This document shows positions 1,034 through 58,328 of a DNA stretch of 64,000 nucleotides, in pieces. Source of the stretch: Argopecten irradians (Eukaryota; Mollusca; Bivalvia; Pectinida; Pectinidae); the NCBI RefSeq assembly GCF_041381155.1, contig NC_091134.1, forward strand, positions 42,305,338 through 42,369,337. Reading direction: 5' to 3'. The position numbers were made by a program, and so were the translations under genes. The number at the start of each line of letters is the position of its first letter. Position 1 is the stretch's first letter. Below the pieces are notes generated by a model that saw only the letters and a list, made by a program, of their open reading frames with translations, did no database searches and had not been told where the DNA came from.

Positions 1034-1432
1034 ATGGCTGTTACCATGACAAGCCACCAGAGTACCTACAGGGCCATCATCCTCTTACTGTTAGTTGTCC
1101 AGTCTCAGTGTCAAAACCCTCGGGTCGTCAGGATCGGCGCTATCCTCAGCTCGACACAGAACCAACAGGTGTTTCAGGATGCTGTACGTGGCCTCAACAA
1201 CAACTCAAACATCCGGTTCGAGTACACCTCCATCATCATGGATTCGAACAGGATTCAATCTGCCCTCAAGCTTTGTGATGAACTTGTGAAGAAGGCTGTC
1301 CATATTGTGATTGTGAGCCACCCACCTGCTCCCGATAATGAACAGGCACCAATATCTGTGTCCTATACATGTGGCTTCTACAATATTCCTGTCATTGGGA
1401 TCTCTACAAGGGACAGCTCATTCTCCGATAAG
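1034..1432 (+). CDS. GRIN1: GRIN1 exon A: signal peptide and start of amino-terminal domain
   Basis: The exon encodes 133 residues. A hydrophobic IILLLLVV core at residues 15-22 forms a signal peptide, probably cleaved near QSQCQ, followed by [10 protein letters not shown], which aligns with the start of the GluN1 leucine/isoleucine/valine-binding-protein-like domain. It ends with [20 protein letters not shown], matching the GluN1 stretch that ends in YSDK. The first ATG was chosen because it precedes the signal peptide; a second Met at residue 5 is also possible. The donor at 1433 is AAG|GTACTC, phase 0. The donor and the preceding exon bases are themselves the template of the downstream 50 bp array. 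Confidence 0.93.
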
Positions 1433-4400
1433 GTACTCACTTCTAGATGTTATATTAGTAGTATCACTCATTCCCAGACAAGGTACTCACTTCTAGATGT
1501 TAGATTAGTAGTATCACTCATTCTCAGACAAGGTACTCACTTCTAGATGTTAGATTAGTAGTATTACTCATTCTCAGATAAGGTACTCACTTCTAGATGT
1601 TATATTAGTAGTATCACTCATTCTCAGACAAGGTACTCACTTCTAGATGTTATATTAGTAGTATCACTCATTCTCAGATAAGGTACTCACTTCTAGGTGT
1701 TAGATTAGTAGTATCACTCATTCTCAGATAAGGTACTCACTTCTAGGTGTTAGATTAGTAGTATCACTCATTCTCAGATAAGGTACTCACTTCTAGGTGT
1801 TAGATTAGTAGTATCACTCATTCTCAGACAAGGTACTCACTTCTAGATGTTATATTAGTAGTATCACTCATTCTCAGATAAGGTACTCACTTCTAGATGT
1901 TATATTAATAGTATCACTCATTCTCAGATAAGGTACTCACTTCTAGGTGTTAGATTAGTAGTATCACTCATTCTCAGATAAGGTACTCACTTCTAGATGT
2001 TAGATTAGTAGGGTTATCACTCATTCTCAGACAAGGTACTCACTTTTAGATGTTAGATTAGTAGTATCACTCATTCTCAGACAAGGTACTCACTTTTAGA
2101 TGTTAGATTAGTAGTATCACTCATTCTCAGATAAGGTACTCACTTCTAGATGTTATATTAGTAGTATCACTCATTCTCAGATAAGGTACTCACTTCTAGA
2201 TGTCTTAAATTAGTTCCTAAGGTAACTTATTATTAGATGTACATGTTGCCATTGTAATACATGTATGAATAACATATGTAACCCTTATTTTGGAAAAGTA
2301 TTTTGCAATTTGGCTAATTTCTATATACTTCACTGGCATCATATTGAGTATTTACTTTTAGACACAGGCGCACAGATTTTTGTTAATAAAAAATTATTAT
2401 AACAATTATCTTGGTAAAATTATCTGAAGTCGATTGTTATTTATTACAATTAAATGACATGATGGTTAGAAATAACCTTTTAGTCTGCAAATAAGTTTAA
2501 CACGCTTGGTCTATCTACATTCCCAGAATATGTCTATGTTAATTGATAGAATTAATTTTTCACAATTCTGCAGAGAAGTCGATCCTGCCATAGTTTTCCA
2601 CTCAGACACGTAACGCATTTTCATAAGTTTTGACTGAAAACACTGCAGGAAAACAAGATTTTAACAGTGTCTAGTGAAGCATTTTTATGCATTTGAAGAT
2701 CCGCTCTTACATTAATAACTCTGAAAGCAGAGAGCTGGTTTAACTTCTGAAAGGTGAGAGATGGTGTCAAGACGTCCGCCATCGATTTTCTATAAATCAA
2801 CCGGAGTTAGCTAATGTATTTCCAGCAGCCGCAACAATAATAAATAGTTACGTGATTTTTGTATTCAACAAATATCGTGTGTACTTCACATCGATTGTAA
2901 ATTGTAATGTGGCGATAACTACACCAAATCAAGGGTGCATGAGGGAAGTGATTACCACCCCCGGGCGTCTGCGGGGAACCATTATATAAAATATTGGTAT
3001 TTGTATATTCTTAGTTCTGGTACAATGGCAGGTAGGTATTACTCACTTAACGTTCGGTTTTTACAGAGAGTGAGGCCTTCCATTGATGAGACTGTACAGC
3101 TGACGGGAGACCTTGTATATCTGACAGAGATAACGCCACGGTTCAGTGGTTTTAGGGATTGATAACGGTACGGTTTGCTTTACTATTTAGAAGTCTTTGT
3201 AGGTATAAAAGTGTGAGAATCCAGACAGATGTATATAAGAGAGGAGAAATATATAACGGCCAATTATACACAGTAATCTGTGAGTTTCAGTACGATGCAC
3301 CCGCTGTTCGGGGGTCATAATGATCTGAGAGATAGCTCATCCCTGTTGGTTGTTGGTGTCGTTATAATTAGTGCTGGTATGCTATAGTTTATGAATAACT
3401 TATCGGTGATCACTCAGCAGTGATTGTTATTTTGTATCAGAAATGTCATATTCTCTGATTGTATTATTCTTATCTATTTAAAAAAAAAACCACTGTTATT
3501 CTGTCGTTCATTGTATTTAGATACATTGTTGTGATATCTATGATATAAGTACATATATACTGTTGAGGTACATGTAACATTGCAATTGTAATGATTGCAA
3601 ATAAACCTGCCTTATCAATCACCTTTATATGTATATAAAGACCACTTATTAATAATTAGGATCTTAAAGATGCTCCACCGCCGACAGGAAGTCATAAACG
3701 ATATATATATTATCATTTGAACAATAATTGGTGTTTAATCCTGTCTAATTAACACAAAAAAATATCACCAAGATAATTTATTTGCTTTTAGTGCATGCAT
3801 GTGTACAATTAGTACTTCATTCCATATAGCACATTCAGTATATATACATGTATATCTATAGATGATGCCACAGAATTTTTTAGGAATGCAATTAATTTTT
3901 TTTTTTAATATTTTATTTTGAAGTAAAATGAGAAGCTCAAACTTTTCAATGGTGGTACCATGGTTGTAAAGAAAGTAACTTAGTATGTAACTGAATTGAG
4001 AAACACTACCAGTAATTCATCTGATCCTGTTTTTTTGATAGAGAAAAAAATACCATTTGTCAGCTATGGAGCATCAATCCTTTGCTATATAATTTCCCCT
4101 GTGTATAAAGACCATTTGGCTAGAAAGACATTTTTTCTTGGTCCCTTGGGTGGTCTTTATAAACAGGCTTAAATTTAACTATTCATTTATTCCCTGTGTA
4201 CTTTGTTTAGTTTTTAAATTTTAAAAATTAAAGGCTGTTGTCTTTAAAGTTACATGTACCTTTAAAGCTTGGTAATTAATTCATAGGAGATAATCATTTA
4301 GTTTGAGAAATCAGTGTGGTTTTCTTCCTTGCTTAGAAAACTACGATCCTGAACTTGCATTGAAACCATGGCCACCTACCAAACCAAAGAAGGATTGAAA

Positions 4401-7400
4401 TATAATACACAATTTATTTGATCTGTTTTCATCAATTTAATTGCTGTTTGATTTGCTTTAATAACATTGAAAGTGGGTCATCAACAGCATTCGAAATTAA
4501 CGCCTGTCCATCTGCCCATTACCGGCAACTTTATAGAAAGGCAGACATTTTTTGCCATGCAATTGGTCCTTTGACCAGCAACTTTTTTACCATGGAGGCC
4601 TCTACCATCCCTTGTAGGTATGTACCATGGAGGCCTCTACCATCCTGTAGGTATGTACCATGGAGGCCTCTACCATCCATTCACCTGTAGGTATGTACCA
4701 TGGATTGCCTCTACCATCCTTGTAGGTATGTACCATGGATGCCTCTACCATCCTGTAGGTATGTACCATGGATGGCCTCTACCATCCTGTAGGTATGTAC
4801 CATGGAGGCCTCTACCATCCATGTAGGTATGTACCATGGAGGCCTCTACCATCCCTGTAGGTATGTACCATGGTGGCCTCTACCATCCATGTAGTATGTA
4901 CCATGGAGGTACCAATGGTATGTACCATGGATGCCTCTACCATCATGTAGGTATGTACCATGGAGGCCTCTACCATCCTTGTAGGTATGTACCATGGAGG
5001 CCTCTACCATCCTTGTAGGTATGTACCATGGAGGACTCTACCACCCATGTAGGTATGTACCATGGAGGCCTCTACCATCCTTGTAGGTATGTACCATGGA
5101 TGCCTCTACCATCCCTGTAGGTATGTACCAATGGATGCCTCTACCATCCTTGTAGGTATGTACCATGGATGCCTCTACCATCCGTGTAGGTATGTACCAT
5201 GGAGGCCTCTACCATCCTTGTAGGTATGTACCATGGATGCCTCTACCATCCTTGTAGGTATGTACCATGGAGGCCTCTACCATCCCTGTAGGTATGTACC
5301 ATGGATGCCTCTACCATCTCTGTAGGTAGGTACCATGAAGGCCTCTATCATCCTTGTAGGTATGTACAATGGATGCCTCTACCATCCCTGTAGGTATGTA
5401 CCATGGAGGCCTCTACCATCCTTGTAGGTATGTACCATGGAGGCCTCTACCATCCATTGTAGGTATGTACCATGGAGGCCTCTACCATCCTTGTAGGTAT
5501 GTACCATGGAGGCCTCTACCATCCCTGTAGGTATGTACCATGGAGGCCTCTACCATCCTTGTAGGTATGTACCATGGAGGCCTCTATCATCCATGTAGGT
5601 ATGTACCATGGATGCCTCTACCATCCTTGTAGGTATGTACCATGGAGGCCTCTACCATCGCTGTAGGTATGTACCATGGAGGCTTCTACAATTCCAATCA
5701 GTAGGTACCATGGAGGCCTCCACAATCCTTGTATGTATGTACCATGGAGGCCTCTACCATCCATGTAGGTATGTACCATGGATGCCTCTACCATCACTGT
5801 AGGTATGTACCATGGAGGCCTCTACCATCCATGTAGGTATGTACCATGGAGGCCTCTACCATCGCTGTAGGTATGTACCATGGAGGCCTCTACCATCCAT
5901 GTAGGTATGTACCATGGAGGCCTCTACCATCCATGTAGGTATGTACATGGAGCTCTACCATGGAGGTATGTACCTCTACCATCCATGTAGGTATGTACCA
6001 TGGATGCCTCTACCATCCTGTAGGTATGTACCATGGAGGCCTCTACCATCCTTGTAGGTATGTATGGGCCTCTACCATCCTTGTAGGTATGTACCATGGA
6101 GGCCTCTACCATCCCATGTAGGTATGTACCATGGAGGCCTCTACCATCCTTGTAGGTATGTACCATGGAGGCCTCTACCATCCCATGTAGGTATGTACCA
6201 TGGAGGCCTCTACCATCCCTGTAGGTATGTACCATGGATGCCTCTACCATCCCATGTAGGTATGTACCATGGAGGCCTCTACCATCCCTGTAGGTATGTA
6301 CCATGGATGCCTCTACCATCCCTGTAGGTATGTACCATGGAGGCCTCTACCTACCTACCATCCTTGTAGGTATGTACCATGGAGGCCTCTACCATCCTTG
6401 TAGGTATGTACCATGGATGCCTCTACCATCCTGTAGGTATGTACCATGGAGGCCTCTACCATCCCTGTAGGTATGTACCATGGAGGCCTCTACCATCCTG
6501 TAGGTATGTACCATGGAGGCCTCTACCATCCTGTAGGTATGTACCATGGAGGCCTCTACCATCCTTGTAGGTATGTACCATGGATGCCTCTACCATCCCT
6601 GTAGGTATGTACCATGGAGGCTCTACCATCCTGTAGGTATGTACCATGGAGGCCTCTACCTTCCATCCCTGTAGGTATGTACCATGGAGGCCTCTACCAT
6701 CCCTGTAGGTATGTACCATGGAGGCCTCTACCATCCTTGTAGGTATGTACCATGGAGGCCTCTACCATCCCTGTAGGTATGTACCATGGATGCCTCTACC
6801 ATCCCTGTAGGTATGTACCATGGAGGCCTCTACCATCGCTGTAGGTATGTACCATGGATGCCTCTACCATCCCTGTAGGTATGTACCATGGAGGCCTCTA
6901 CCATCCTTGTAGGTATGTACCATGGAGCCCTCTACCTCCACTCTACCATCCTTGTAGGTATGTATCATGGATGCCTCTACCATCTCTGTAGGTATGTACC
7001 ATGGATGCCTCTACCATCCTTATAGGTATGTACCATGGAGGGCCTCTACCATCCCTGTAGGTATGTACCATGGATGCCTCTACCATCCCTGTAGGTATGT
7101 ACCATGGATGCCTCTACCATCCATTGTAGGTATGTACCATGGAGGCCTCTACCATCCTTGTAGGTATGTACCATGGATGTCTCTACCATCCTGTAGGTAT
7201 GTACCATGGAGGCCTCTACCATCCATGTAGGTATGTACCATGGATGCCTCTACCATCCGCTGTAGGTATGTACCATGGAGGCCTCTACAATCCCTGTAGG
7301 TATGTACCATGGAGGCCTCTACCATCCATGTAGGTATGTACCATGGAGGCCTCTACCATCCACTGTGTATGTACCATGTATGCCTCTACATCTGTAGGTA

Positions 7401-10400
7401 TGGAGGCCTCTACCATCCCTGTAGGTATGTACCATGGATGGCCTCTACCATCCTTGTAGGTATGTACCATGGATGCCTCTACCATCCCTTGTAGGTATGT
7501 ACCATGGAGGCCTCTACCATCCTTGTAGGTATGTACCATGGAGGCCTCTACCATCCCTGTAGGTATGTACCATGGAGGCCTCTACCATCGCTGTAGGTAT
7601 GTACCATGGATGCCTCTACCATCCCTGTAGGTATGTACCATGGATGCCTCTACCATCCTTGTAGGTATGTACCATGGAGGCCTCTACCATCCATGTAGGT
7701 ATGTACCATGGAGGCCTCTACCATCCTGTAGGTATGTACCATGGAGGCCTCTACCATCCTTGTAGGTATGTACCATGGAGGCCTCTACCATCCTTGTAGG
7801 TATGTACCATGGATGCTCTCTACCATCCTTGTAGGTATGTACCATGGAGGCCTCTACCATCCCTGTAGGTATGTACCATGGAGGCCTCTACCATCCCTGT
7901 AGGTATGTACCATGGATGCCTCTACCATCCATGTAGGTATGTACCATGGATGCCTCTACCATCCTTGTAGGTATGTACCATGGATGCCTCTACCATCCTT
8001 GTAGGTATGTACCATGGAGGCCTCTACCATTCCCTGTAGGTATGTACCATGGAGGCCTCTATCCCATCCCATGTAGGTATGTACCATGGAGGCCTCTACC
8101 ATCCTTGTAGGTATGTACCATGGAGGCCTCTACCATCCCTTGTAGGTATGTACCATGGAGGCCTCTACCATCCTTGTAGGTATGTACCATGGATGCCTCT
8201 ACCATCCCTGTAGGTATGTACCATGGATGCCTCTACCATCCCTGTAGGTATGTACCATGGATGCCTCTACCATCCCTGTAGGTATGTACCATGGAGGCCT
8301 CTACCATCCGTGTAGGTATGTACCATGGAGGCCTCTACCATCCTTGTAGGTATGTACCATGGAGGCCTCTACCATCCTTGTAGGTATGTACCATGGAGGC
8401 CTCTACCATCCATGTAGGTATGTACCATGGAGGCCTCTACCATCCTTGTAGGTATGTACCATGGAGGCCTCTACCATCCTTGTAGGTATGTACCATGGAG
8501 GCCTCTACCATCCCTGTAGGTATGTACCATGGAGGCCTCTACCATCATTGAAGGTATGTACCATGGAGGCATCTACCATCCATGTACGTATGTACCATGG
8601 AGGCCTCTATCATCCCTGTAGGTATGTACAATGGAGGACTCTACCATCCCTGTAGGTATGTATCATGGAGGCCTCTACCATCCCTGTAGGTATGTACCAT
8701 GGAGGCCTCTACCATCCTTGTAGGTATGTACCATGGAGGCCTCTACCATCCATGTAGGTATGTACCATGGATGCCTCTACCATCCCTGTAGGTATGTACC
8801 ATGGAGGCCTCTACCATCCCTGTAGGTATGTACCATGGAGGCCTCTCATCCCTGTAGGTATGTACATGGAGGACATCTACCACCCATGTAGGTATGTACC
8901 ATGGAGGCCTCTACCATCGCTGTAGGTATGTACCATGGAGGCCTCTACCATCCCTGTAGGTATGTACCATGGAGGACTCTACCATCCATGTAGGTATGTA
9001 CCATGGAGGCCTCTACCATCCATGTAGGTATGTACCATGGAGGACTCTACCACCCATGTAGGTATGTACCATGGAGGCCTCTACCATCCTTGTAGGTATG
9101 TACCATGGAGGCCTCTACCATCCCTGTAGGTATGTACCATGGAGGCCTCTACCATCCCTGTAGGTATGTACCATGGAGGCCTCTACCATCCATGTAGGTA
9201 TGTACCATGGATGCCTCTACCATCCCTGTAGGTATGTACCATGGAGGCCTCTACCATCCATGTAGGTATGTACCATGGATGCCTCTACCATCCCTGTAGG
9301 TATGTACCATGGAGGCCTCTACCATCGCTGTAGGTATGTACCATGGATGCCTCTACCATCCCTGTAGGTATGTACCATGGATGCCTCTACCATCCCTGTA
9401 GGTATGTACCATGGAGGCCTCTACCATCCATGTAGGTATGTACCATGGATGCCTCTACCATCGCTGTAGGTATGTACCATGGAGGCCTCTACCATCCATG
9501 TAGGTATGTACCATGAAGGCCTCTACCATCCATGTAGGTATGTACCATGAAGGCCTCTACCATCGCTGTAGGTATGTACCATGGATGCCTCTACCATCCT
9601 TGTAGGTATGTACCATGGAGGCCTCTACCATCCCTGTAGGTATGTACCATGGAGACCTCTACCATCACATGTATGTATGTAACCATGGAGGCCTCTACCA
9701 TCCCATGTACGTATGTACCATGGAGGCCTCTACCATCCCAATAGGTATGTACCATGGAGGCCTCTACCATCCCTGTAGGTATGTACCATGGATGCCTCTA
9801 CCATCACTGTAGGTATGTACCATGGATGCCTCTACCATCCCTGTAGGTATGTACCATGGATGCCTCTACCATCCCTGTAGGTATGTACCATGGAGGCCTC
9901 TACCATCCCTGTAGGTATGTACCATGGATGCCTCTACCATCCCTGTAGGTATGTACCATGGAGGCCTCTACCATCCCTGTAGGTATGTACCATGGAGGCC
10001 TCTACCATCCCTGTAGGTATGTACCATGGATGCCTCTACCATCCCTGTAGGTATGTACCATGGAGGCCTCTACCATCCATGTAGGTATGTACCATGGAGG
10101 CCTCTACATCCCTGTAGGTATGTACCATGGAGGCCTCTACCATCCTTGTAGGTATGTACCATGGAGGACTCTACCATCCATGTAGGTATGTACCATGGAG
10201 GTCTCTACCATCCTTGTAGGTATGTACCATGGAGGCCTCTACCATCGCTGTAGGTATGTACCATGGATGCCTCTACCATCCTTGTAGGTATGTACCATGG
10301 ATGCCTCTACCATCCCTGTAGGTATGTACCATGGATGCCTCTACCATCCTTGTAGGTATGTACCATGGAGGCCTCTACCATCCCTGTAGGTATGTACCAT

Positions 10401-13400
10401 GGAGGCCTCTACCATCCCTGTAGGTATGTACCATGGATGCCTCTACCATCCCTGTAGGTATGTACCATGGATGCCTCTACCATCGCTGTAGGTATGTACC
10501 ATGGATGCCTCTACCATCCCTGTAGGTATGTACCATGGATGCCTCTACCATCGCTGTAGGTATGTACCATGGATGCCTCTACCATCCCTGTAGGTATGTA
10601 CCATGGATGCCTCTACCATCCCTGTAGGTATGTACCATGGATGCCTCTACCATCGCTGTAGGTATGTACCATGGATGCCTCTACCATCGCTGTAGGTATG
10701 TACCATGGATGCCTCTACCATCGCTGTAGGTATGTACCATGGAGGCCTCTACCATCCCTGTAGGTATGTACCATTGATGCCTCTTCCATCATTTACTTCT
10801 GTTACAATGTATCACTGTGACAGCTATAGTGTAAAAAATTATTTTATGAAAACAAATTACACTAGCTCTGCAACCCTACTGTTTAATCTTACTGTAACAG
10901 AGCCAGAGTAGTATGTGGCTTGTTTGACTCAAACCCTCGACCTGGTTCATCACTTTTCCACCTGAGCTAATGGTGATATCTTTGATGATATCATTATAAT
11001 TAGATTATATCAATTCTCACTGGTGATTACAGAAGATAGCTGTTAAGTGGTAAGTTTAGTCACTATATTTAGTGATACCCTTAAGGTATTCTTTAAATGC
11101 ATTCATCATCACATAAGTGCCAACTTAAAGTTGTTTAAACCTTTATATACACTATTTTATATGTAATAATCACTGTCATGTTTGTACAGGTATGTTGGGT
11201 CTGAAGCTGTCCAACAGCACTAACGAAGATGTCCACATCAGAGACAGTGTCCAGGTGATTGGTCAGGCCATGCAGAAATTCTTCATACAAAATAGTGACC
11301 TACAAAATATCACGGACACGCCCACAGACTGTCGTAGTGTGAACAATGACTGGGAAATTGGCAACAAGATACTGGCGTAAGTATCAGCATCAGACATGAA
11401 AAACACACCTTTGATCCTACATGCCCTCGCACTGGACAAACCAAAACAAAACCCTTTTTATCCTACATTAGATTCTGTTCAAGGTCATAGTTGTTTTATT
11501 TTTATTTTTATTTTACATTTTTGTTGTAATTTAGGGCACTAAAGACAGAGAAGCTAGAAAAGGGACAAACAGGACAAGTGAGCTTTAACGAGGATGGGGA
11601 CCGAGTCAATGCAGTGTACTTCATTAGGAACAGTCAGCAGGACAAGGTCATGGTCGGTTACTATGGCAACAAACAGGTAACCATGGCAGTGGAATCGGGC
11701 AAATAAATTCTTCATAAAAAAGTAGATATTCTAGACATTCAGACATTTTTAATCAATGCTAAATGTGTCTGCTTACAGTGAAATAGTGATATATATCGGA
11801 GGGATATGTAAATAAAGAAAATTATTTACGTGTCAATATGGATATGTAACACCTCAACTCATTAAAATGAATGTTTTTCAAATTTACAACTGTAACATTC
11901 CCTTGGTGTAGTAAAAAGAAATGTTGTACTAGAGTTAAGCGTTTCTTTATTTTTATTTGATCTATTTACCAGGCAGCAGAACCTGCATTAAAGATCACTG
12001 GAGAAAATAAGATCGTGTGGCCAGGTAACCTGATGGCAAAACCAAAAGGTGTAAAGATCTCAACCCACCTTAAGGTAAGATTATGGTGTAAAGATCTCAA
12101 CCCATTTTAAGGTAAAATTATATTGTGTAAAAATCTCAACCCGTAAGATATATTGTGTAAAAATCTCAACCCATCTAAAGGTAAGATTATGGTGTAAAGA
12201 TCTCAATCCACATAAAGGTAAGATTATGGTGTAAAGATCTCAACCCATTTTAAGGTAAGATTATGGTGTAAAGATCTTGACCCACCTATAAAAGATAAGA
12301 TTTTTGGTAAAAAGATCTCAACCAATCTAAAGGTAAGATTATATTGTGTAAAGATCTCAATCCATCTAAAGGTAATATTATGGTGTAAAGATCTCAACCC
12401 AATTAAAGGTAAGATTATGGTGTAAAGATCTCAACCCAGTTAAAGGTAAGATTATGGTGCAAGGATCTCAATCCACCTTATGCTAAAATTATGGTAAAAA
12501 GATCTTTAATCACTTAAAGATGACAATGTGCCCAGATATAAAGTTGCAAAGATCTCAACCCACCTAAAGGTAAGAATATGTTGTAAAGATCTCAACCCAA
12601 TTAAAGGTAAGAATATGTTGTAAAGATCTCAACCCAGTTAAAGGTAAGAATATGTTGTAAAGATCTCAACCCATTTTAAGGTAAGATTATGGTGTAAAGA
12701 TCTCAATCCATCTAAAGGTAAGAATATGTTGTAAAGATCTCAACCCAGTTAAAGGTAAGAATATGTTGTAAAGATCTCAATCCATCTAAAGGTAAGAATA
12801 TGTTGTAAAGATCTCAACCCAGTTAAAGGTAAGAATATGTTGTAAAGATCTCAACCCAGTTAAAGGTAAGAATATGTTGTAAAGATCTCAACCCAGTTAA
12901 GCAACCCAATTAAAGGTAAGAATATGTTGTAAAGATCTCAACCCAGTTAAAGGTAAGAATATGTTGTAAAGATCTCTACCCAATTCAAGGTAAGATTATG
13001 GTGTACAGATCTCAATCCACCTTATGGTAAGATTATAGTAAAAAGATCTTTATTTAAAAATGACAATGTGCCCAGATTATGAGATATAAAGTTGCAAATA
13101 TCTCAACTTATCAAGGTAAGATATTTTGGCAAGGCCGTAGGATCAAGAAACAGTCTAAGACTTAAGTTTTGGTCAGCCAATCAATACATGTTTTAGCCAA
13201 TCTGATTCATGATCTTAGTACCAGGTTTAACAGTATAACCTCCCCTCTCTTCCCCCATTCTTTCAAACTGTAAAACAAGCTTTTTTAGGAATACAAAATT
13301 TGCATCTTTGTTATTTTCAACGAACCGGTTTTCGTAAAAATACAAAAACACACTCAAGAGGTTTTACGAACAATTGTGAATTCATACACAATTATTTACA

Positions 13401-16400
13401 TAACGTTTGTACTTGCATTTGAGCTCTCTCGTGAAATTAAGCAAAACAAATTTCTGTAAATCTTATTTGATTTTAGTTTTATTTTAGGGATTTCCGCGCT
13501 GTCAATGAATTTCTACAGCACCAAATTTTGTAAAAGGGTATTTCCAGTATCGAACAATTGAACTGCGCTTATCTACCAGACCATATCAAAGCAAAATGTT
13601 CTTCATCTTGACTAAAGTTCTTCAATTGTTTAACTTACAGGTCGTGACCTTGAAAGCCACTCCCTTTGTACACACAGAACTCCTGTCAGAGAAAGGTTCC
13701 TGTGAGGAGAAGAAAAATGAACGTATCTGTTGGAAAGTTAACGCTACAACAGGTAGTACATTATTACCACTTTAATTGTTATTTACATACAGGAGAAAAA
13801 CTACTGTCTCAAGCTGATAATTTCAACCAGCTTCTTTTCACATTAACATAACTTTGTGCTGTCATGTCACACAACATCTTTGTCAAGGCGGGCAATTTAA
13901 TATTATGATTTGATATCATAGAAATTGAGAAGTATTTAAATTATTTGATAATTCAGACTATCTTGAAATAAGAAAACATAAAATGGTTCACAGTGACTAA
14001 TTTGTCGGGAAAAAACCCAACATCAAATAAGGGTATACTGAAAATGTACATATTTCTATGATAAAAATATTTTTGTGAATGCCTGAATTCATCATTCTGC
14101 TAACCAGTTAAAAACCAATTCAGCCCTTTTTTACCGTTTTACCATTATGTTAGAGATAAATGATTTGTGTTTGATTAGATTATTTAAGATATTTCGATCA
14201 TTCTTACTGTAATTAGCTTATCTAATTCTTATTTTATAAAGGAGAGAAAGTTGACTACTGTTGCTATGGCTACTGCATTGATATGCTGATTGACATCTCT
14301 AAGAAAGTAAACTTTACATTTGAACTACATCTGAGTACTGACAACTCCTTTGGTACTCTAACAAGGGTGAGTATTTCTAATGTATAAAACCAGTGTGTTT
14401 AGTTCAAAAGTAATGATAATTCAGGAAATGTATCTTCTATGTCTCATGAAATGAAATAGAACTAAACTTACACATTTGGTAAAAATATATACATCAATTT
14501 GGTAAAAATATATACATCGATCTGCAGTTTATGATACAGCGTACATATTATATCATCCTGGAAACTCCAGGGGTTACGATCACTTACAATCTATACACCC
14601 CTGGACTATCTCATAGTAAAACTGAAGGCAGCTCAGGGTAACAAATCTGAACCAATCACAGGCCTGCAAAAATTTGCTTTGAAGACTACAGAGAGAGTGA
14701 CACCCAACTTCAAAGCCACTCAGTTAACCATAATGTACCGTTATACGGTTCTTTTGATGTACATCAAATGACTAAAAATCTGTTTGTTTTGTTGCCTTTA
14801 GTTTTACTGTGAGATAGTCCAGGTGTGTAGAAATCATAAGTGATCGAAACCACTGGAGTATCAAAGATGATATTTTATATGTTCTACACTTTATTTGCAC
14901 CTCACAAATTGTAAAAAAAGAAATACAGGAAACTAATTATTGCCAATTTAAGTATACCAGCTTGTCACTGATTTACTTAACCTAACCTTGAGATGGATAA
15001 AGATCTTAATACACAATGGTTTACAGACTAACAACAGTAAGATGAAGACATGGAATGGGATGATCGGAGAATTGGTTAGTGAACAGTCTGACCTGATTGT
15101 GGCACCACTTACCATCAACCCCGAGCGGGCAGAACACATCGACTTCTCAAAGCCTTTCAAGTACCAGGGCCTCATTATACTGGTCAAAAAGGTCAGTTGT
15201 GTATATATTATCATACTGGTCAAAACGGTCAGTTGTGTATTTATTATCATACTGGTCAAAAAGGTCAGTTGTGTATTTATTATCATACTGGTCAAAAAGG
15301 TCAGTTGTGTATTTATTATCATACTGGTCAAAAAGGTCAGTTGTGTATTTATTATCATACTGGTCAAAAAGGTCAGTTGTGTAATTTATTATCATACTGG
15401 TCAAAAAGGTCAGTTGTGTATTTATTATCATACTGGTCAAAAAGGTCAGTTGTGTATTTATTATCATACTGGTCAAAAAGGTCAGTTGTGTATTTATTAT
15501 CATACTGGTCAAAAACGTCAGTTGTGCATTTATTATCATACTGGTCAAAAAGGTCAGTTGTGTATTTATTATCATACTGGTCAAAAAGGTCAGTTGTGTA
15601 TTTATTATCATACTGGTCAAAAAGGTCAGTTGTCAGAAAAAAGTGTAGATCTATAGAGTTAGAGAAGCAGTCTGATTGGTGTTGAGATATTCTCTTTGAT
15701 TTTTAGACCTAGCCTGGTCAGATTCTTTAAGAGTTAAAATTGTCTAAAGTCACCCAATGGACAAAGAAAAAATGGCCTTAACAGACAAGTGGTCTCTTTG
15801 CAGAAGTCAAAGGTTAAAATTGGCCATTTAGGACCCTACTAAAGCTGTCTTATTAAGCAGGTGGTCATTATACAGAGGTGGTTGCTAAAGCAAATCTTAC
15901 TGTAATATTATTGATAATTCTCTCTTTATAGACCCAGAAGGATTCCAGCCTAGCCTCCTTCCTACAGCCGTTCCAGGATACTCTGTGGATCCTGGTCGGG
16001 CTGTCTGTACATGTGGTGGCCCTGGTTCTCTACCTCCTTGACAGATTCTCTCCCTTTGGTCGCTTCAAGCTGGCCAAGAGTGACGATACAGAGGAAGACG
16101 CCCTTAACTTATCTAGTGCAATGTGGTTTGCCTGGGGTGTTCTTCTCAATAGTGGTATTGGTGAAGGTAGGTGACTGGGCGTATATATGAAGTATGTCCC
16201 TGTTGATACCACAGATAATCAACCAATGGATAGTGTTTAGCTGCCTCTGTTTAAATTGAAATTTCCAAATTTACAGATTTCCAAAATCATCATCTTTTTC
16301 ATAGCTGTCTGAATACTCTAAAACTTTTTGGTGTGAAACGTCTAAAAGTAGGCTTTAGCATCATTTAAATGGTAATAAAATATTTGACAATTTTCAACTC

Positions 16401-31310: not shown

Positions 31311-31870
31311 TCATCCCATGGTTCTTTGAAGAATAATATTATCAATAAGTTACTTTTAAAAGCAGCTGTATAAATCTATGGTAGGGTTGCTATTACAATA
31401 GTATCAAGCAATGGTTTCTTGGACATCTGTAGCTAGCACCAGGGCATCAAGATTCAATGAGGTTTTGTGGATTTTTAGGATTATTAACCCGTAGTCAAAA
31501 TTTTGTATGTTCTTGTCTTTCCAAATACCTAGTCATTCAAAATATACACTGAATTGTGTATTTCAACATGATACATTTTTTTAATTTTCAACAAATATCA
31601 GATAATATTTTCGAAAATTTTCTAAACTAGGCCTGAGAAAATAAGATTTTTCCTTTATTAACTAAATGTTAGAGATTTATGTGTCATACAATGTACAGTA
31701 TTGAAATTTTAATTTGTTGCTAATGGAACAAAATAATAGATATTTGTTTGACTTTAAAAGCAAAGTATTTTTACAAGACTATACGCAATTGTTATAGCTT
31801 TAAACTCCATTGATGTGATTTCATATTGATGTGTATTTATTGTTCTAAAACCATACAATACAAGAGCTTC
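31311..31870. other. AT-rich intergenic spacer, nothing recognised
   Basis: There is no open frame, structured repeat or recognised motif. Confidence 0.5.
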
Positions 31871-36668: not shown

Positions 36669-37817
36669 ATGGGCCACAAAACCAGTAAACTTCGCCCGAA
36701 AGAGCTCCGGGATTTACAGATCAACACTCACTTTTCTGAGAAAGAACTGCGTGACTGGTATAAAAACTTTCGTCAGGACTATCCTAATGGTTATCTCACT
36801 ATCGACGATTTCACGAGCATCTACGATAACTGTTTCCCTGAGGGTGATGCAGAGAGTTTCGCTGAACATGCCTTTCGAACATTTGATACGAATGATGATG
36901 GCGTCATTAATTTTCGAGAGTTCATTTGTGCGTTGAGTGTGAGAAGTTGTGGGCACACTGACCAGAAGTTGAGATGGGCATTCCGGATGTATGATATTGA
37001 TGGCAACGGCTATGTCTCCCGCCATGAGATGATGGAAATCATTCATGTAAGTCATATACAAATGTAATACAGCACCTGAAACACAGGGACTTGCATGACA
37101 CCTTTCCATAGTGCCCTTCATGAAAATAGACCTCTTGATCTGAACCCCAGCTAGAAACTTATGATATTATTGACTACAGTGGACTCATGATAAATCAGAT
37201 GCTGATTATCCAGAAAAATCATAATCCTGATTGAAATATCATGGAACAGGTCCGTTTGTAAATGGCATTTTGATAAATGTAATTATTTACAGGGTCCACT
37301 GGGAGTTAGACCAGCTGAAGAATTTTCTCATTCGGGGCAAAATTGACAAAATTTGCATAACTATAAGCCTTGCAATATATATTTGGTTTGTTGTCATGCA
37401 TGAAAATGCTTGGGTTTCCTGGTTGACCCTACTGTCTGGTAAGACATCTCCACATGCTTTGGGTTGAGTATTCTCTTAGGATGACTCTTGTCTAATGGTC
37501 ATGCTGAAAGTTCTTTCAAGGCAACATGGGGAAATTAATATGTAGCTAACACGAAAAAAAATGACATCAACGGCAATTCAGATGCTGTATGTAAATAAGT
37601 GTTCAAAGAATTTGAGAAAATTTCAAATACAACTTTTTCATATTTTGCCTTTCAGGCTATATTCAAAATGGTGGGATATGGTGATGAGTCAGCTGTAGAA
37701 GCTAGGACAGACCAGATATTTAGTTCGATGGACAAAAATGCTGACGGGCAATTGTCACAAGAGGAATTCATAGAGGGAGCACTGAAGGACCCAACAATCA
37801 TTAAGATGATAGCATGA
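36669..37817 (+). CDS. Neuronal calcium sensor, hippocalcin/neurocalcin-like (paralogue 1)
   Basis: Two coding exons, 36669-37046 and 37656-37817, join in phase 0 (GAAATCATTCAT|GTAAGT ... TTTCAG|GCT) to give 179 residues. It is a cytosolic EF-hand calcium sensor that couples calcium to membrane targets. The N-terminus MGHKTSK fits N-myristoylation (Gly2, Ser6, Lys7), the basis of the family's calcium-myristoyl switch. EF1 (around residues 37-48) is degenerate, with YPNG where the family has CPxG. EF2 loop 73-84 ([12 protein letters not shown]), EF3 109-120 ([12 protein letters not shown]) and EF4 152-163 ([12 protein letters not shown]) keep the coordinating residues. The EF3-EF4 linker is shorter than in neurocalcin or frequenin, and the protein stops just after EF4 at DPTIIKMIA without the usual extra tail. 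It is roughly three quarters identical to the product at 57278-58328. Exact subfamily is uncertain. Confidence 0.92.
37047..37655 (+). other. Intron of first calcium-sensor gene
   Basis: A GT-AG intron of 609 bp, with no tandem copies of the splice junction, unlike the homologous intron of the paralogue. Confidence 0.85.
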
Positions 37818-40100: not shown

Positions 40101-40107
40101 GTACAAC

Positions 40108-42067: not shown

Positions 42068-45000
42068 ACTTTCCCTACCTATGTAAACGGTTACCTAATA
42101 TACCTGTGTGAATGGTTACCTGACATACCTGTGTTGATGGTGACCTGACATACCTGTGTTGATGGTGACCTGACATACCTGTGTTGATGGTTACCTGACA
42201 TACCAGTGTTGATGGTTACCTGACATAACCTGTGTGAATGTTTACCTGACATCCTGTGTGAATGGTTACCTGACATACCTATGTGAATGGTTACCTGACA
42301 TACCTGTGTTAATGGTTACCTGACAAACCTGTGTTGATGGTTACCTGACATACCTGTGTTAATGGTTACCTGACATACCTGTGTTGATGGTTACCTGACA
42401 TACCTGTGTTAATGGTTACCTGACATACCTGTGTTAATGGTTACCTGACATACCTGTGTTAATGGTTACCTGATATACATGTGTTAATAGTTACCTGACA
42501 TACCTGTGTTAATGGTTACCTGACATACCTGTGTTAATGGTTACCTGACATACCTGTGTTAATGGTAACATGACATACCTGTGTTAATGGTAACACGACA
42601 TACCTGTGTTAATGGTTACCTGACATACCTGTGTTAATGGTAACATGACATACCTGTGTTAATGGTTACCTGACATACCTGTGTAAATGGTAACATGACA
42701 TACCTGTGTTGATGGTTACCTGATATACCTGTGTTAATGGTAACACGACATACCTGTTGTAATGGTAACATGACATACCTGTGTTAATGGTAACATGACA
42801 TACCTGTGTTAATGGTAACATGACATACCTGTGTTAATGGTAACATGACATACCTGTGTTAATGGTTACCTGACATACCTGTGTTAATGGTAACATGACA
42901 TACCTGTTGTAATGGTAACATGACATACCTGTGTTAATGGTTACCTGACATACCTGTGTTAATGGTTACCTGACATACCTGTGTTAATGGTTACCTGACA
43001 TACCTGTGTTAATGGTTACCTGACATACCTGTGTTAATGGTTACCTGACATACCTGTGTTAATGGTTACCTGACATACCTGTGTTAATGGTAACATGACA
43101 TACCTGTGTTAATGGTAACATGACATACCTGTGTTAATGGTTACCTGACATACCTGTGTTAATAGTTACCTGACATACCTGTGTTAATGGTTACCTGACA
43201 TACCTGTGTTAATGGTTACCTGACATACCTGTGTTAATGGTAACATGAAATACCTGTGTTAATGGTAACATGACATACCTGTGTTAATGGTAACACGACA
43301 TACCTGTGTTAATGGTTACCTGACATACCTGTGTAAATGGTAACATGACATACCTGTGTTGATGGTTACCTGACATACCTGTGTAAATGGTAACATGACA
43401 TACCTGTGTTGATGGTTACCTGACATACCTGTGTTAATGGTAACTGACATACCTGTGTTAATGGTAACATGACATACCTGTGTTAATGGTTACCTGACAT
43501 ACCTGTGTTGATGGTTACCTGACATACCTGTGTTAATGGTAACATGACATACCTGTGTTGATGGTTACCTGACATACCTGTGTTAATGGTAACATGACAT
43601 ACCTGTGTTAATGGTTACCTGACATACCTGTGTTAATGGTTACCTGACATACCTGTGTTATGGTTACTGACATACCTGTGTTATGGTAACCTGACATACC
43701 TGTGTTAATGGTTACCTGACATACGTGTAACCTGTGTTGAATGGTTACCTGACATACCTGTGTTGATGGTTACCTGACATACCTGTGTTAATGGTAACAT
43801 GACATACCTGTGTTGATGGTTACCTGACATACCTGTGTTAATGGTAACCTGACATACCTGTGTTGATGGTTACCTGACATACCTGTGTTGATGGTTACCT
43901 GACATACCTGTGTTAATGGTAACCTGACATACCTGTGTTGATGGTTACCTGACATACCTGTGTTAATGGTTACCTGACATACCTGTGTGTAATGAACCTG
44001 ACATACCTGTGTTAATGGTTACCTGACATACCTGTGTTGATGGTTACCTGACATACCTGTGTTGATGGTTACCTGACATACCTGTGTTAATGGTTACCTG
44101 ACATACCTGTTGTTAATGGTTACCTGACATACCTGTGTTGATGGTTACCTGACATACCTGTGTTAATGGTTACCTGACATACCTGTGTTAATGGTAACAT
44201 GACATACCTGTGTTGATGGTTACCTGACATACCTGTGTTAATGGTAACCTGACATACCTGTGTTGATGGTTACCTGACATACCTGTGTTAATGGTTACCT
44301 GACATACCTGTGTATGGTTACCTGACATACCTGTGTGAATGGTTACCTGACATACCTGTGTTAATGGTTACCTGACATACCTGTGTTAATGGTTACCTGA
44401 CATACCTGTGTTGATGGTTACCTGACATACCTGTGTTAATAGTAACATGACATACCTGTGTTGATGGTTACCTGACATACCTGTGTTAATGGTTACCTGA
44501 CATACCTGTGTTAATGGTTACCTGACATACCTGTTGTAAATGTGTTAATGGTTACCTGACATACCTGTGTTAATGGTTACCTGACATACCTGTGTTAATG
44601 GTTACCTGACATACCTGTGTTGATGGTTACCTGACATACCTGTGTTAATGGTAACATGACATACCTGTGTTGATGGTTACCTGACATACCTGTGTTAATG
44701 GTAACCTGACATACCTGTGTTGATGGTTACCTGACATACCTGTGTTAATGGTTACCTGACATACCTGTGTTGATGGTTACCTGACATACCTGTGTTAATG
44801 GTAACATGACATACCTGTGTTAATGGTTACCTGACATACCTGTGTTAATGGTTACCTGACATACCTGTGTTGATGGTTACCTGACATACCTGTGTTAATG
44901 GTTACCTGACATACCTGTGTTGATGGTTACCTGACATACCTGTGTTAATGGTAACATGACATACCTGTGTTGATGGTTACCTGACATACCTGTGTTAATG

Positions 45001-48000
45001 GTAACATGACATACCTGTGTTGATGGTTACCTGACATACCTGTGTTAATGGTAACATGACATACCTGTGTTAATGGTAACATGACATACCTGTGTTAATG
45101 GTTACCTGACATACCTGTGTTAATGGTTACCTGACATACCTGTGTTAATGGTTACCTGACATACCTGTGTTGATGGTTACCTGACATACCTGTGTTAATG
45201 GTTACCTGACATACCTGTGTTGATGGTTACCTGACATACCTGTGTTAATGGTTACCTGACATACCTGTGTTGATGGTTACCTGACATATCTGTGTTAATG
45301 GTTACCTGACATACCTGTGTTAATGGTTACCTGACATACCTATGGTAATGGTAACCTGACATACCTGTGTTAATGGTTACCTGACATACCTGTGTTAATG
45401 GTTACCTGACATACCTGTGTTAATGGTTACCTGACATACCTGTGTTGATGGTTACCTGACATACCTGTGTTAATGGTAACATGACATACCTGTGTTGATG
45501 GTTACCTGACATACCTGTGTTAATGGTAACATGACATACCTGTGTTGATGGTTACCTGACATACCTGTGTTAATGGTTACCTGACATACCTGTGTTAATG
45601 GTTACCTGACATACCTGTGTTAATGGTAACTGACATACCTGTGTTAATGGTTACCTGACATACCTGTGTTAATGGTAACATGACATACCTGTGTTAATGG
45701 TAACATGACATACCTGTGTTAATGGTTACCTGACATACCTGTGTTAATGGTTACCTGACATACCTGTGTTAATGGTTACCTGACATACCTGTGTTAATGG
45801 TTACCTGACATACCTGTGTTAATGGTTACCTGACATACCTGTGTTAATGGTTACCTGACATACCTGTGTTAATGGTTACCTGACATACCTGTGTTGATGG
45901 TTACCTGACATACCTGTGTTAATGGTAACATGACATACCTGTGTTGATGGTTACCTGACATACCTGTGTTAATGGTAACATGACATACCTGTGTTGATGG
46001 TTACCTGACATACCTGTGTTAATGGTAACATGACATACCTGTGTTGATGGTTACCTGACATACCTGTGTTAATGGTAACATGACATACCTGTGTTGATGG
46101 TTACCTGACATACCTGTGTTGATGGTTACCTGACATACCTGTGTTAATGGTAACATGACATACCTGTGTTGATGGTTACCTGACATACCTGTGTTAATGG
46201 TAACATGACATACCTGTGTTGATGGTTACCTGACATACCTGTGTTAATGGTTACCTGACATACCTGTGTTAATGGTTACCTGACATACCTGTGTTAATGG
46301 TTACCTGACATACCTGTGTTAATGGTTACCTGACATACCTGTGTTAATGGTTACCTGACATACCTGTGTTAATGGTTACCTGACATACCTGTGTTAATGG
46401 TTACCTGACATACCTGTGTTAATGGTTACCTGACATACCTGTGTTAATGGTTACCTGACATACCTGTGTTGATGGTTACCTGACATACCTGTGTTAATGG
46501 TAACATGACATACCTGTGTTGATGGTTACCTGACATACCTGTGTTAATGGTAACCTGACATACCTGTGTTGTTAATGGTTACCTGACATACCTGTGTTAA
46601 TGGTTACCTGACATACCTGTGTTGATGGTTACCTGACATACCTGTGTTAATGGTTACCTGACATACCTGTGTTAATGGTAACCTGACATACCTGTGTTGA
46701 TGGTTACCTGACATACCTGTGTTAATGGTTACCTGACATACCTATGTGAATGGTTACCTGACATACCTGTGTTGATGGTTACCTGACATGCCTGTGTTAA
46801 TGGTAACATGACATACCTGTGTTGATGGTTACCTGACATACCTGTGTTAATGGTAACATGACATACCTGTGTTGATGGTTACCTGACATACCTGTGTAAA
46901 TGGTAACCTGACATACCTGTGTTAATGGTTACCTGACATACCTGTGTTAATGGTTACCTGACATACCTGTGTTAATGGTAACCTGACATACCTGTGTGAA
47001 TGGTTACCTGACATACCTGTGTTAATGGTTACCTGACATACCTGTGTTAATGGTTACCTGACATACCTGTGTTAATGGTTACCTGACATACCTGTGTTGA
47101 TGGTTACCTGACATACCTGTGTTAATGGTTAACATGACATACCTGTGTTAATGGTAACATGAATACCTGTGTTAATGGTAACATGACATACCTGTGTTAA
47201 TGGTTACCTGACATACCTGTGTTGATGGTTACCTGACATACCTGTGTTAATGGTAACATGACATACCTGTGTTGATGGTTACCTGACATACCTGTGTTAA
47301 TGGTAACCTGACATACATGTGTTAATGGTTACCTGACATACCTGTGTTAATGGTTACCTGACATACCTGTGTGATACTGCAATTGTTACCTGACATACCT
47401 GTGTTGATGGTTACCTGACATACCTGTGTTAATGGTAACCTGACATACCTGTGTTGATGGTTACCTGACATACCTGTGTTAATGGTTACCTGACATACCT
47501 GTGTTGATGGTTACCTGACATACCTGTGTTAATGGTAACCTGACATACCTGTGTTGATGGTTACCTGACATACCTGTGTTAATGGTTACCTGACATACCT
47601 GTGTAAATGGTTACCTGACAATACTTGTATGGTACTATACCTGTGTTAATGGTAACTGACATACCTGTGTTAATGGTACCTGACATACCTGTGTTGATGG
47701 TTACCTGACATACCTGTTGTTAATGGTTACATGACATACCTGTGTTGTAATGGTTAACATGACATACCTGTGTTAATGGTAACCTGACATACCTGTGTTG
47801 ATGGTTACCTGACATACCTGTGTTAATGGTTACCTGACATACCTGTGTTGATGGTTACCTGACATACCTGTTGTAATGGTAACATGACATACCTGTGTTG
47901 ATGGTTACCTGACATACCTGTGTTAATGGTTAACCTGACATACCTGTGTTAATGGTAACATGACATACCTGTGTTAATGGTTACCTGACATACCTGTGTT

Positions 48001-50830
48001 AATGGTTACCTGACATACCTGTGTTAATGGTTACCTGACATACCTGTGTTGATGGTTACCTGACATACCTGTGTTAATGGTTACCTGACATACCTGTGTT
48101 AATGGTTACCTGACATACCTGTGTTAATGGTTACCTGACATACCTGTGTGAATGGTTACCTGACATACCTGTGTGAATGGTTACCTGACATACCTGTGTT
48201 GATGGTTACCTGACATACCTATGTTAATGGTAACATGACATACCTGTGTTGATGGTTACCTGACATACCTATGTGAATGGTTACCTGACATACCTATGTT
48301 AATGGTTACCTGACATACCTGTGTTGATGGTTACCTGACATACCTGTGTTAATGGTTACATGACATACCTGTGTTGATGGTTACCTGACATATGTGTTAA
48401 TGGTTACCTGACATACCTGTAGTTAATGGTTACCTGACATACTGTGTTAATGGTTACCTGACATACCTATGTGAATGGTTACCTGACATACCTATGTAAT
48501 GGTTACCTGACATACCTGTGTTGATGGTTACCTGACATACCTGTGTTAATGGTTACCTGACATACCTGTGTTGATGGTTACCTGACATACCTATGTGAAT
48601 GGTTACCTGACATACCTGTGTTGATGGTTACCTGACATACCTGTGTTAATGGTAACACGACATACCTGTGTTGATGGTTACCTGACATACCTGTGTGAAT
48701 GGCTACCTGACATACCTGTGTTGATGGTTACCTGACATACCTATGTTAATGGTAACATGACATACCTGTGTTGATGGTTACCTGACATACCTATGTGAAT
48801 GGTTACCTGACATACCTATGTGAATGGTTACCTGACAAAGCTGTGTTGATGGTTACCTGACATACCTATGTGAATGGTTACATGACATACCTGTGTTGAT
48901 GGTTACCTGACATACCTGTGTTAATGGTAACATGACATACCTGTGTTGATGGTTACCTGAACATACCTGTGTAAATTGTAACATGACATATCTGTGTTGA
49001 TAGTTACCTGACATACCTGTGTATAATGGTAACATGACAAACCTGTGTTAATGGTAACATGACATACCTGTGTTGATGGTTACCTGACATACCTGTGTTA
49101 ATGGTAACATGACATACCTGTGTTGATGGTTACCTGACATACCTGTGTTAATGGTAACATGACATACCTGTGTTGATGGTTACCTGACATACCTGTGTTA
49201 ATGGTAACCTGACATACCTGTGTTAATGGTTACCTGACATACCTGTGTTAATGGTTACCTGACATACCTGTGTTAATGGTAACCTGACATACCTGTGTGT
49301 TAATGGTAACCTGACATACCTGTGTTGATGGTTACCTGACATACATGTGTTAATGGTTACCTGACATACCAGTGTAAATTATTACCTGACATATCTGTGT
49401 TAATGGTTACCTGACATACCTATGTGAATGGTTACCTGACATACCTATGGTAATGGTTACCTGACAAAGCTGTGTTGATGGTTACCTGACATACCTATGT
49501 GAATGGTTACCTGACATACCTATGTGAATGGTTACCTGACATACCTATGTGAATGGTTACCTGACATACCTATGTTAATGGTTACCTGACATACCTATGT
49601 GAATGGTTACCTGACATACCTATGTGAATGGTTACCTGACAAAGCTGTGTTGATGGTTACCTGACATACCTATGTTAATGGTTACCTGACATACCTATGT
49701 TAATGGTTACCTGACATACCTGTGTTGATGGTTACCTGACATACCTATGTGAATGGTTACCTGACATACCTATGTGAATGGTTACCTGACATACCTATGT
49801 GAATGGTTACCTGACATACCTATGTGAATGGTTACCTGACATACCTATGTGAATGGTTACCTGACAAAGCTGTGTTGATGGTTACCTGACATACCTATGT
49901 GAATGGTTACCTGACATACCTATGTGAATGGTTACCTGACATACCTATGTGAATGGTTACCTGACAAAGCTGTGTTGATGGTTACCTGACATACCTATGT
50001 GAATGGTTACCTGACATAGCTGTGTCGATGGTTACCTGACATATCTGTGTTAATGGTTACCTGACATACCTGTGTTGATGGTTACCTGACATACCTGTGT
50101 TAATGGTTACCTGACATACCTGTGTTGATGGTTACCTGACATACCTGTGTTGATGGTTACCTGACATACCTGTGTTGATGGTTACCTGACATACCTGTGT
50201 TAATGGTTACCTGACATCCTGTGTGAATGGCTACCTGACATACTTGTGTTGATGGTAACCTGACATACCTGTGTGAATGGCTACCTGACATACCTGTGTT
50301 GATGGTAACCTGACATACCTGTGTTAATGGTTACATGACATACCTGTGTTAATGGTTACCTGACATACATGTGTTAATGGTTACCTGACATACCAGTGTA
50401 AATAATTACCTGACATATCTGTGTTAATAGTTACCTAACATACCTGTGTTAATGGTTACCTGACATACCTGTGTTAATGGTTACCTGATATACATGTGTT
50501 AATGGTTACCTGACATACCTGTGTTAATGGTTACCTGATATACATGTGTTAATGGTTACCTGACATACCTGTGTTAATGGTTATCTGACATACCTGTGTT
50601 AATGGTTACCTGATATACATGTGTTAATGGTTACCTGACATACCTGTGTTTATGGTTACCTGATATACATGTGTTAATAGTTACCTGACATACCTGTGTG
50701 AATGATTACCTGATATACCTGTGTTAATGGTTACCTAACATACCTGTGTTAATGGTTACCTGACATACCTGTATTAATGGTTACCTGACATACCTGTGTA
50801 AATGATTACCTGACATGCATGTGTTGATGA
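42068..50830. repeat. 25 bp minisatellite, about 350 copies, with 50 bp dimer structure
   Basis: The unit reads GGTTACCTGACATACCTGTG and then TTAAT. Two variants, GTTGATGGTTACCTG and GTTAATGGTAACATG, alternate over long blocks, giving a 50 bp higher-order unit. A GTGAATGG/CTATG variant is enriched at 48.2-50.0 kb, and the last ~500 bp are more diverged. On the minus strand each unit has ACACAG|GTATGT, and many also CAG|GTAACC, both donor-like. It lies between the two sensor genes; no coding function. Confidence 0.97.
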
Positions 50831-57214: not shown

Positions 57215-57277
57215 ATTGGATAGAAATAAAGGCTACATTTTACCTACGTTAGTACCACAACTCCTCTTGGCTTTGGG
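57215..57277 (+). other. 5' UTR of second calcium-sensor gene, behind acceptor
   Basis: An acceptor TTCTACAG ending at 57214 (or GTTTAG ending at 57206) precedes ATTGGATAGAAATAAAGGCT. The position and sequence parallel the first gene's 5' UTR. Confidence 0.5.
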
Positions 57278-58328
57278 ATGGGGCAGAACACCAGTCAGCT
57301 ACGCCCTAAAGAACTCAAGGATTTACAGATCAACACACACTTCACCGAGAAAGAGCTACAGGATTGGTACAGGAACTTTCGTCGAGATTATCCGGACGGC
57401 TGTCTCACCATTGACAACTTCACCAATATTTACTCGAACTGTTTCCCTGAAGGTGATCCCGAGACCTTCGCTGCTCAAGCCTTCCGCACGTTTGATATCA
57501 ATGGAGATGGTGTGATCAACTTTCGGGAGTTCATGTGTGCTTTGAGTGTGAAAAGTCGTGGACGATGCGAACAGAAATTGAGATGGGCATTCCGGATGTA
57601 TGACATTGATAATAATGGCTATGTATCCCGAGAGGAGATGATTGAAATCATACAGGTAATTATAAATCAGTCAGGTAATTATATCAAATCATTCAGGTGA
57701 TTATAACAAATCATGCAGGTAATTTTAAGTAACATGTTTTTAACAGATAAAATGATAAGTACAATTTTTTTTTTTTCTCTAGGTTACTTAATTTCGTAAT
57801 TTCTATTTTAAATAATTTTCATGAACCTTTTACCAACTGAAAATTTTAATTGAAATAATTCCATTGTAACTTAGTATGGTAAATATGATTTTGTGGAGAT
57901 AAACAAGTCAAGTTATCATGGTAACTATGAGAAATCAGGTTTTCTTGCTGCTTGCTCTTAGTGATACTGATAGTCATTTAGCATGTCACACCTTTGTTTT
58001 CAACCTCTATTTGATAATTACATCTCTGACTACAAGACCTTGAATTTGTTCTTTGTCTTTGTTCTTAATATATATACATTGTATTTTAAATCCTAAATAC
58101 CAGGCCACTGTTCTTGGTCCCTTTCCTCGTTAATCAAATCATACCTGAAATGTGTTCCCTTTTCAGGCTATGTTTAAGATGACAGGAAATGGTGACGCAG
58201 CAGCAGCAGAAGAGCGCACAGACAAGATCTTTAACTTGATGGACAAAAATTCTGATGGTCAGCTGTCACAGGAGGAGTTCATAGAGGGCGCCAGGAGTGA
58301 CCCCACGATAATACAGATGCTAGGATGA
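57278..58328 (+). CDS. Neuronal calcium sensor, hippocalcin/neurocalcin-like (paralogue 2)
   Basis: Exons 57278-57655 and 58167-58328 join in phase 0 (ATCATACAG|GTAATT ... TTTTCAG|GCT) to give 179 residues, with exactly the exon lengths of paralogue 1 (378 and 162 bp). MGQNTSQ fits myristoylation (Gly2, Ser6). EF1 is degenerate, with YPDG. EF2 73-84 ([12 protein letters not shown]), EF3 109-120 (DIDNNGYVSREE) and EF4 152-163 ([12 protein letters not shown]) look functional. It ends at DPTIIQMLG, short for the family. A calcium-myristoyl-switch sensor is the likely role. Identity to paralogue 1 is about 75% overall, lower in the EF3-EF4 linker (GNGDAAAAEERT versus [12 protein letters not shown]). 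The pair most likely arose by local duplication, later separated by the 8.8 kb array. The donor region is followed by small tandem copies of the splice junction. Confidence 0.92.
57656..57724 (+). repeat. Short tandem copies of the paralogue 2 5' splice junction
   Basis: After the true junction ATACAG|GTAATTATAAATC come AGTCAG|GTAATTATATCAAATC, ATTCAG|GTGATTATAACAAATC and ATGCAG|GTAATTTT. That makes three further donor-like copies at about 19-22 bp spacing. The intron otherwise continues as ordinary AT-rich sequence to 58166. Confidence 0.85.

Follow-up and report, generated by a model that had tools for sequence, protein, structure and literature searches.

Why do tandem repeats in a scallop genome begin inside coding exons, on the bases that form the 5' splice site (donor)? 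The question is raised by a stretch of 64,000 nucleotides (nt) of Argopecten irradians, here called the window, which contains one GluN1 (NMDA receptor) gene on the plus strand (1034 to 30139) and two neurocalcin-like genes. Four arrays in the window start within a coding exon, 11-27 nt short of its donor, and the repeat unit of each is the end of that exon joined to its own donor. A fifth array appears to be derived in the same manner from an exon that the window lacks. The arrays are very probably donor-spanning minisatellites of the 'mirage' type described in amphioxus, which would have arisen by duplication and expansion, perhaps with a bias linked to donors.

Arrays at the donors of the window

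The exons and arrays concerned are given below; the slash marks the exon-intron junction.

1034 to 1432, plus strand: first coding exon of GluN1, 133 codons, end ...SSFSDK, donor AAG/GTACTC at 1432
1417 to 2203, plus strand: array A1 on donor 1432, 50-bp unit (16 exon nt and 34 intron nt), 16 copies
11973 to 12074, plus strand: GluN1 exon, end ...KISTHLK, donor AAG/GTAAGA at 12074
12048 to 13049, plus strand: array A2 on donor 12074, 37-bp unit (27 exon nt and 10 intron nt)
15027 to 15191, plus strand: GluN1 exon, end ...GLIILVKK, donor AAG/GTCAGT at 15191
15177 to 15633, plus strand: array A3 on donor 15191, 36-bp unit (15 exon nt and 21 intron nt), 13 copies
57278 to 57655, plus strand: first coding exon of neurocalcin-like gene B, end ...MIEIIQ, donor CAG/GTAATT at 57655
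57645 to 57724, plus strand: array A4 on donor 57655, 19-22-bp unit (11 exon nt and 8-11 intron nt), 4 copies

The original prediction had placed repeats at the exon ends 1432, 12074, 15191 and 57655. All four were borne out, the spliced frame and the junction peptides showing them to be real exon ends. The reading frame of GluN1 was unbroken when the exons were spliced in silico. The spliced window protein showed 99% identity with P0001, 'glutamate receptor ionotropic, NMDA 1-like [Argopecten irradians]', and for the neurocalcin-like gene 100% identity with P0121, 'neurocalcin homolog [Argopecten irradians]'. The first coding exon of GluN1 matched PDB GluN1 chains, P0001 and P0002 up to SDK. 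P0002 is a protein of 955 residues from a 3,183-base intron-free contig (source 'lgn'), from which it is apparently transcript-derived.

In A1-A4 the junction stretch occurs a single time as the genuine end of the exon, its further copies following downstream within the intron; in the products examined each array is entirely downstream of its donor. The copies carry their own substitutions and small indels. The measured values were close to the predicted ones, with 11-27 exon nt per unit (6-27 predicted), 4 to about 26 copies (3 to ~28) and unit lengths of 50, 37, 36 and 19-22 bp (50, 37, 36 and ~20 bp). The copy number of A2 was 23 by pattern location and about 26 by wrap-around alignment, while the A3 unit equals 12 codons, with a single 37-bp copy in the interval 15360-15396. 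The exon-end residues at the array junctions are conserved in GluN1 relatives (among 120 homologues listed, those fitting each pattern), and the exon is therefore taken as the source and the array as the product. For the THLK junction the conservation pattern fitted none among the 120 homologues listed.

The preference for donors was analysed with arrays of at least 3 copies found by Tandem Repeats Finder (TRF), which gave 12 arrays in the window. Four of the 12 start inside an exon and extend across its coding donor, occupying 4 of the 15 coding donors, and none of the 12 spans any of the 16 acceptors in the window. The fifth array, A5, is counted among the 12 and not among these four; it comes on top of them because its donor lies outside the window sequence. 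The non-coding 5' exons of the neurocalcin genes and their donors lie outside the counts. In a local-repeat test, an 18-base junction window was matched against the sequence lying 10-159 bases away. Agreement was 16-18 of the 18 bases at the four array donors, the background of 2,014 positions outside arrays having a median of 10 and a 99th percentile of 15. The other 11 of the 15 coding donors showed no local repeat above background (9-12 of 18 matched, background fraction 0.14 for the best), and the acceptors gave 8-11 of 18 downstream and 7-11 of 18 upstream. A5 had been missed in the original prediction, which described the other donors of the window as free of arrays. The neurocalcin-like paralogue A supplies an in-window contrast to the donor at 57655:

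36669 to 37046, plus strand: first coding exon of paralogue A, equivalent to that of gene B, donor CAT/GTAAGT at 37046, without array

In minisatellite-rich sequence some arrays could land on donors by chance, with nothing special there. The 12 arrays cover 28,169 of the 64,000 bases (44%), seven of them are unrelated to known donors, and TRF repeats are reported as 15.1% of the A. i. irradians draft (PMC7090048). Random placement (20,000 trials, rejecting placements that overlap more than 60 exon bases) gave, however, a mean of 0.08 arrays on donors and 0.10 on acceptors, compared to 4 and 0 observed. Two or more donor arrays were obtained in 0.3% of the trials and three or more in 0 of 20,000, with A5 additional to this. 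Chance is thus very unlikely, and the placement test supports the predicted independent, non-random amplification of donors in unrelated genes.

The fifth array and the sequence preceding it are as follows.

3795 to 4592, plus strand: 798-bp copy of window 1-779 at 95.7% identity by sequence comparison, abutting A5
4588 to 10790, plus strand: array A5, 34-bp unit ATGGATGCCTCTACCATCCCTGTAG/GTATGTACC, about 182 copies, 6.2 kb

In the A5 unit about 25 coding nt give MDASTIPV and, with the last base, begin G; the intron start GTATGTACC follows. MDASTIPV is the end of a GluN1 exon which is absent from the window and present in P0002. About 120-130 residues of P0002 are without a window counterpart between 1432 and 11190, and its residues 134-255 gave no tblastn match within the window at E up to 1. 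This missing segment runs straight into MLGLK of the exon at 11190, and the phase of the A5 unit is the phase required by that exon. The missing segment and A5 share an exact peptide of at most 10 residues, in which the last M and most of G are residues of the next exon that the intron bases GTATG also spell. The corresponding match is 3-5 residues for any one of the remaining 11 arrays and 5 for the window once A5 is taken out. Judged by the exon end seen in P0002, A5 is a fifth donor-derived array. The public prediction P0001 takes one 34-nt A5 unit as a micro-exon between AG and GT, and the AG-unit-GT string identical to this micro-exon occurs 24 times.

The assembly is probably wrong left of A5, because the seed exon is absent and the 798-bp copy of 1-779 precedes the array; this copy is probably a misjoin or a retained haplotype duplicate. 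The arrays in general, or their joining to exons, might be assembly errors, for which the unmatched P0002 residues and the suspect surroundings of A5 speak, together with the copy numbers of amphioxus PGBD5, reported to differ between two assemblies (PMC3902484). On the other side, the copies have their own substitutions, which plain stutter would not produce, A1-A4 sit in an intact and correctly ordered coding context, and re-examined reads are reported to have upheld the sequence of amphioxus PGBD5 (PMC3902484). An artefact as the source of the arrays is highly improbable.

Splicing products, copy variation and origin

The strong competition from copy donors that had been expected was not seen. 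P0002 contains all 14 of the GluN1 junction peptides tested and P0001 contains 13 of them, without FSDKNVHP, while P0121 contains EIIQ-AMFK, indicating use of the first donor of gene B. No array-derived residues were found in P0002 or P0121 at the five junctions (at the protein level, where minor isoforms are possible), and no copy-donor products at A1-A4 in P0001, P0002 or P0121. Splicing of the main gene products seems, from these peptides, to bypass the arrays without harm. The donor scores of the copies were comparable to that of the true donor; all 16 copies of A1 scored 3 bits or more and A3 had 12 sites at 7 bits or more. The frame is open through A3, shifts at the 37-bp unit and meets a stop at about 15654-15656. 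In an isoform using a copy donor of A3, the linker that precedes the first GluN1 membrane segment would be longer, by 12 residues for a full copy.

The variation within units was measured after wrap-around alignment by comparing the donor core with the rest of the unit. The donor core was less variable in A1 (0 vs 3.4%), A2 (5.6 vs 12.2%), A4 (5.6 vs 12.8%) and A5 (1.2 vs 5.4%), and A3 showed the opposite (1.7 vs 0.6%); the combined rank test over the arrays gave P 0.012. Divergence of the edge copies was looked at as a sign of concerted evolution sparing the edges and was seen in A5 (first copy 0.794, median 0.971) and A2 (last copy 0.838, median 0.919), the edge copies of A1 and A3 not being diverged. 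The copy identity in A2 falls slightly with distance.

These data bear on the possibility that the arrays are a selected splicing device, with spare donors retained to secure or diversify splicing. The near-true donor scores of the copies, the low donor-core variation in A1, A2, A4 and A5 and the 12-codon unit of A3, open in frame for several copies, would suit such a device, and in human IFI6 the downstream repeat units are reported to act as donors (PMC4526556). The conservation in A3 is reversed, however, and low donor-core variation is weak evidence because the copies evolve in concert. Units of 50, 37, 34 and 22 bp shift the frame, and P0002 and P0121 are without array-derived residues at the array junctions. 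A selected device is rather unlikely.

Slippage at AGGT microhomology, proposed in the original prediction, and intron gain of the Rogers type from duplicated AGGT segments were weighed as further sources of the arrays. AG/GT is present in every unit, one A5 unit is annotated as a 34-nt exon in P0001, and fission yeast cases with multiple copies of a 24-bp AGGT segment have been reported (PMC4974935). The slippage model predicts a left edge at AGGT, and it was rejected as the homology extends 11-27 nt upstream of AGGT and each consensus unit holds a single AGGT. Creation of introns or splice sites was likewise not seen; the arrays sit at intron starts, have been added inside introns and form no new ones, the intron of paralogue A is array-free, and 11 of the 15 coding donors have array-free introns. 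Both routes are extremely improbable.

For donor-spanning minisatellites formed by duplication and expansion, a founding tandem duplication over each donor would have come first, followed by growth and homogenisation through unequal exchange, slippage or conversion. No clear shared bases were found by eye at the unit ends. The arrays may be tolerated as no copy lacks a complete donor and the donor furthest upstream remains attached to an intact exon; splicing would continue at that donor and the array would become intron, the choice of the first donor presumably being set by the intact exon upstream of it. Three arrays lie in introns and apart from donors (19716, 27096 and 55500, the last intronic if gene B does have a 5' non-coding intron), compared to five at donors. 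Since tolerance alone would favour the far longer intron interiors, a donor bias or selection for spare donors is left. The donor-linked mutational bias is favoured with modest confidence. Founding duplications would then be commoner at donors than inside introns, for example through repair at the 5' splice site, or single-stranded DNA there, while it is being transcribed, and this is the most speculative step of the scheme.

Several points weigh against this account. The donor-linked bias is a conjecture. The less variable donor core at four arrays is suggestive, so that selection on the copies is conceivable. The seven arrays outside A1-A5 are tied to no known donor, and all the statistics come from one 64-kb window which was chosen for showing the pattern. 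The seed exon of A5 is not in the window and its left flank is suspect, and the transcript origin of P0002 is read from its intron-free contig.

Other arrays and features of the window

The idea that donor-like motifs seed arrays in general was tried on the 7 other arrays and rejected. Both strands were compared with single-base shuffles, making 14 tests, and the P values are uncorrected. The array at 42076-50829 (8.75 kb, 25-bp units) carries CAG/GTATGT on the minus strand with 9.86 bits (P 0.003), and no exon was recognised beside it. The minus strand of 59262-59481 carries CTG/GTATGC (P 0.036). No donor origin is claimed for either.

The 5.2-kb array at 19716-24872, of 26-bp units within a GluN1 intron, resembles a branch point with an acceptor (TACTAAC ... 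CTACAG), and its downstream flank has the similar CATACAGGAATGTGATG; no exon start was found that this array matches. A 57-bp array at 30812-31318 starts directly at an AATAAA that follows the stop codon of GluN1 and may be a polyadenylation signal. At 35362-35893 there are two tandem duplications of 62-bp units which by eye are roughly inverted copies (ACCAGACTTAGACATTATGACAG and complement). GluN1 has two alternative last exons, 24968-25081 and 29867-30139. The first kind is found at the end of the scallop relatives P0003 and P0004, and the second at the end of P0001 and P0002. The neurocalcin-like paralogues lie downstream of GluN1, A at 36669-37817 and B at 57278-58328 (last exon 58167-58328). 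Dating of A4 by the paralogue was abandoned, as the third positions of genes A and B are alike in 67 of 126 cases and the genes are too diverged.

Known systems and significance

The 'mirages' of amphioxus are minisatellite-like tandem repeats in which the unit spans an exon-intron boundary. They are reported for Adh3 (Canestro et al. 2002), the globins BflGb6 and BflGb9, troponin C and PGBD5, with units of 10-72 bp in Adh3 and 150-160 bp in the globins; many copies retain AG/GT, regular splicing is undisturbed and the origin is given as unclear (PMC3087553, PMC3902484). Variable array length, somatic instability and concerted evolution that spares the array edges are further traits of the type. 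The scallop units similarly span the true exon-intron boundary, directly in A1-A4 and through the P0002 exon end in A5, they are short (22, 34, 36, 37 and 50 bp), and regular splicing is kept in the protein products, minor isoforms being possible. The amphioxus mirages as a set include both 5' and 3' boundaries, whereas 0 of 16 scallop acceptors are involved, which is a small sample. The scallop differs also in its phylum and in having 4 of 15 donors affected within 64 kb, plus A5, and in one array of about 182 copies.

In human IFI6 (6-16), Turri et al. (1995) described a minisatellite that supplies multiple splice donors at an exon end, and downstream repeat donors are used, giving several mRNAs (PMC4526556). 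The scallop donors are also multiplied by a minisatellite at the exon end, but no copy-donor product was found at A1-A4 in the three proteins, and in P0001 one A5 unit figures as a predicted exon. The intron gain of the type proposed by Rogers (1989) proceeds through tandem duplication of AGGT segments and is reported to include fission yeast and vertebrate ATP2A1 (PMC4974935). The tandem copies of a coding segment carrying AG/GT are shared with it; in contrast, no intron lies between the copies in the scallop products, and existing donors have been multiplied into existing introns. The 'genome-specific process' of the original prediction was therefore too strong a term, as the structure is published for amphioxus genes and IFI6 has a donor minisatellite. 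Among molluscs, a 27-bp intron minisatellite of abalone is described in passages that make no junction-spanning claim (PMC6905558), and among the open-access papers listed for scallop and mollusc cases no title or abstract beginning reported junction-spanning arrays in a mollusc. The kind of structure is known from amphioxus and human IFI6; the donor-only polarity and the local density look new.

The findings extend a little-known structure to a remote phylum, where its local density is high, and the restriction to donors is a constraint that any mechanism has to explain. For annotation they are a warning, as a repeat unit has been mistaken for an exon of 34 nt, and beside the array true exons are absent. 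The cause of junction-spanning minisatellites becomes testable in a farmed animal with a sequenced genome. A broader proposal, which is tentative and may well prove wrong, is that scallop genomes undergo donor-directed amplification, in which the DNA of active 5' splice sites is duplicated time and again and donors, not acceptors, seed minisatellites genome-wide. If true, this could act, for example, where U1 meets the polymerase, by way of single-stranded DNA coupled to transcription or of repair, and it would give the scallop longer introns and ready-made AG/GT micro-exons.

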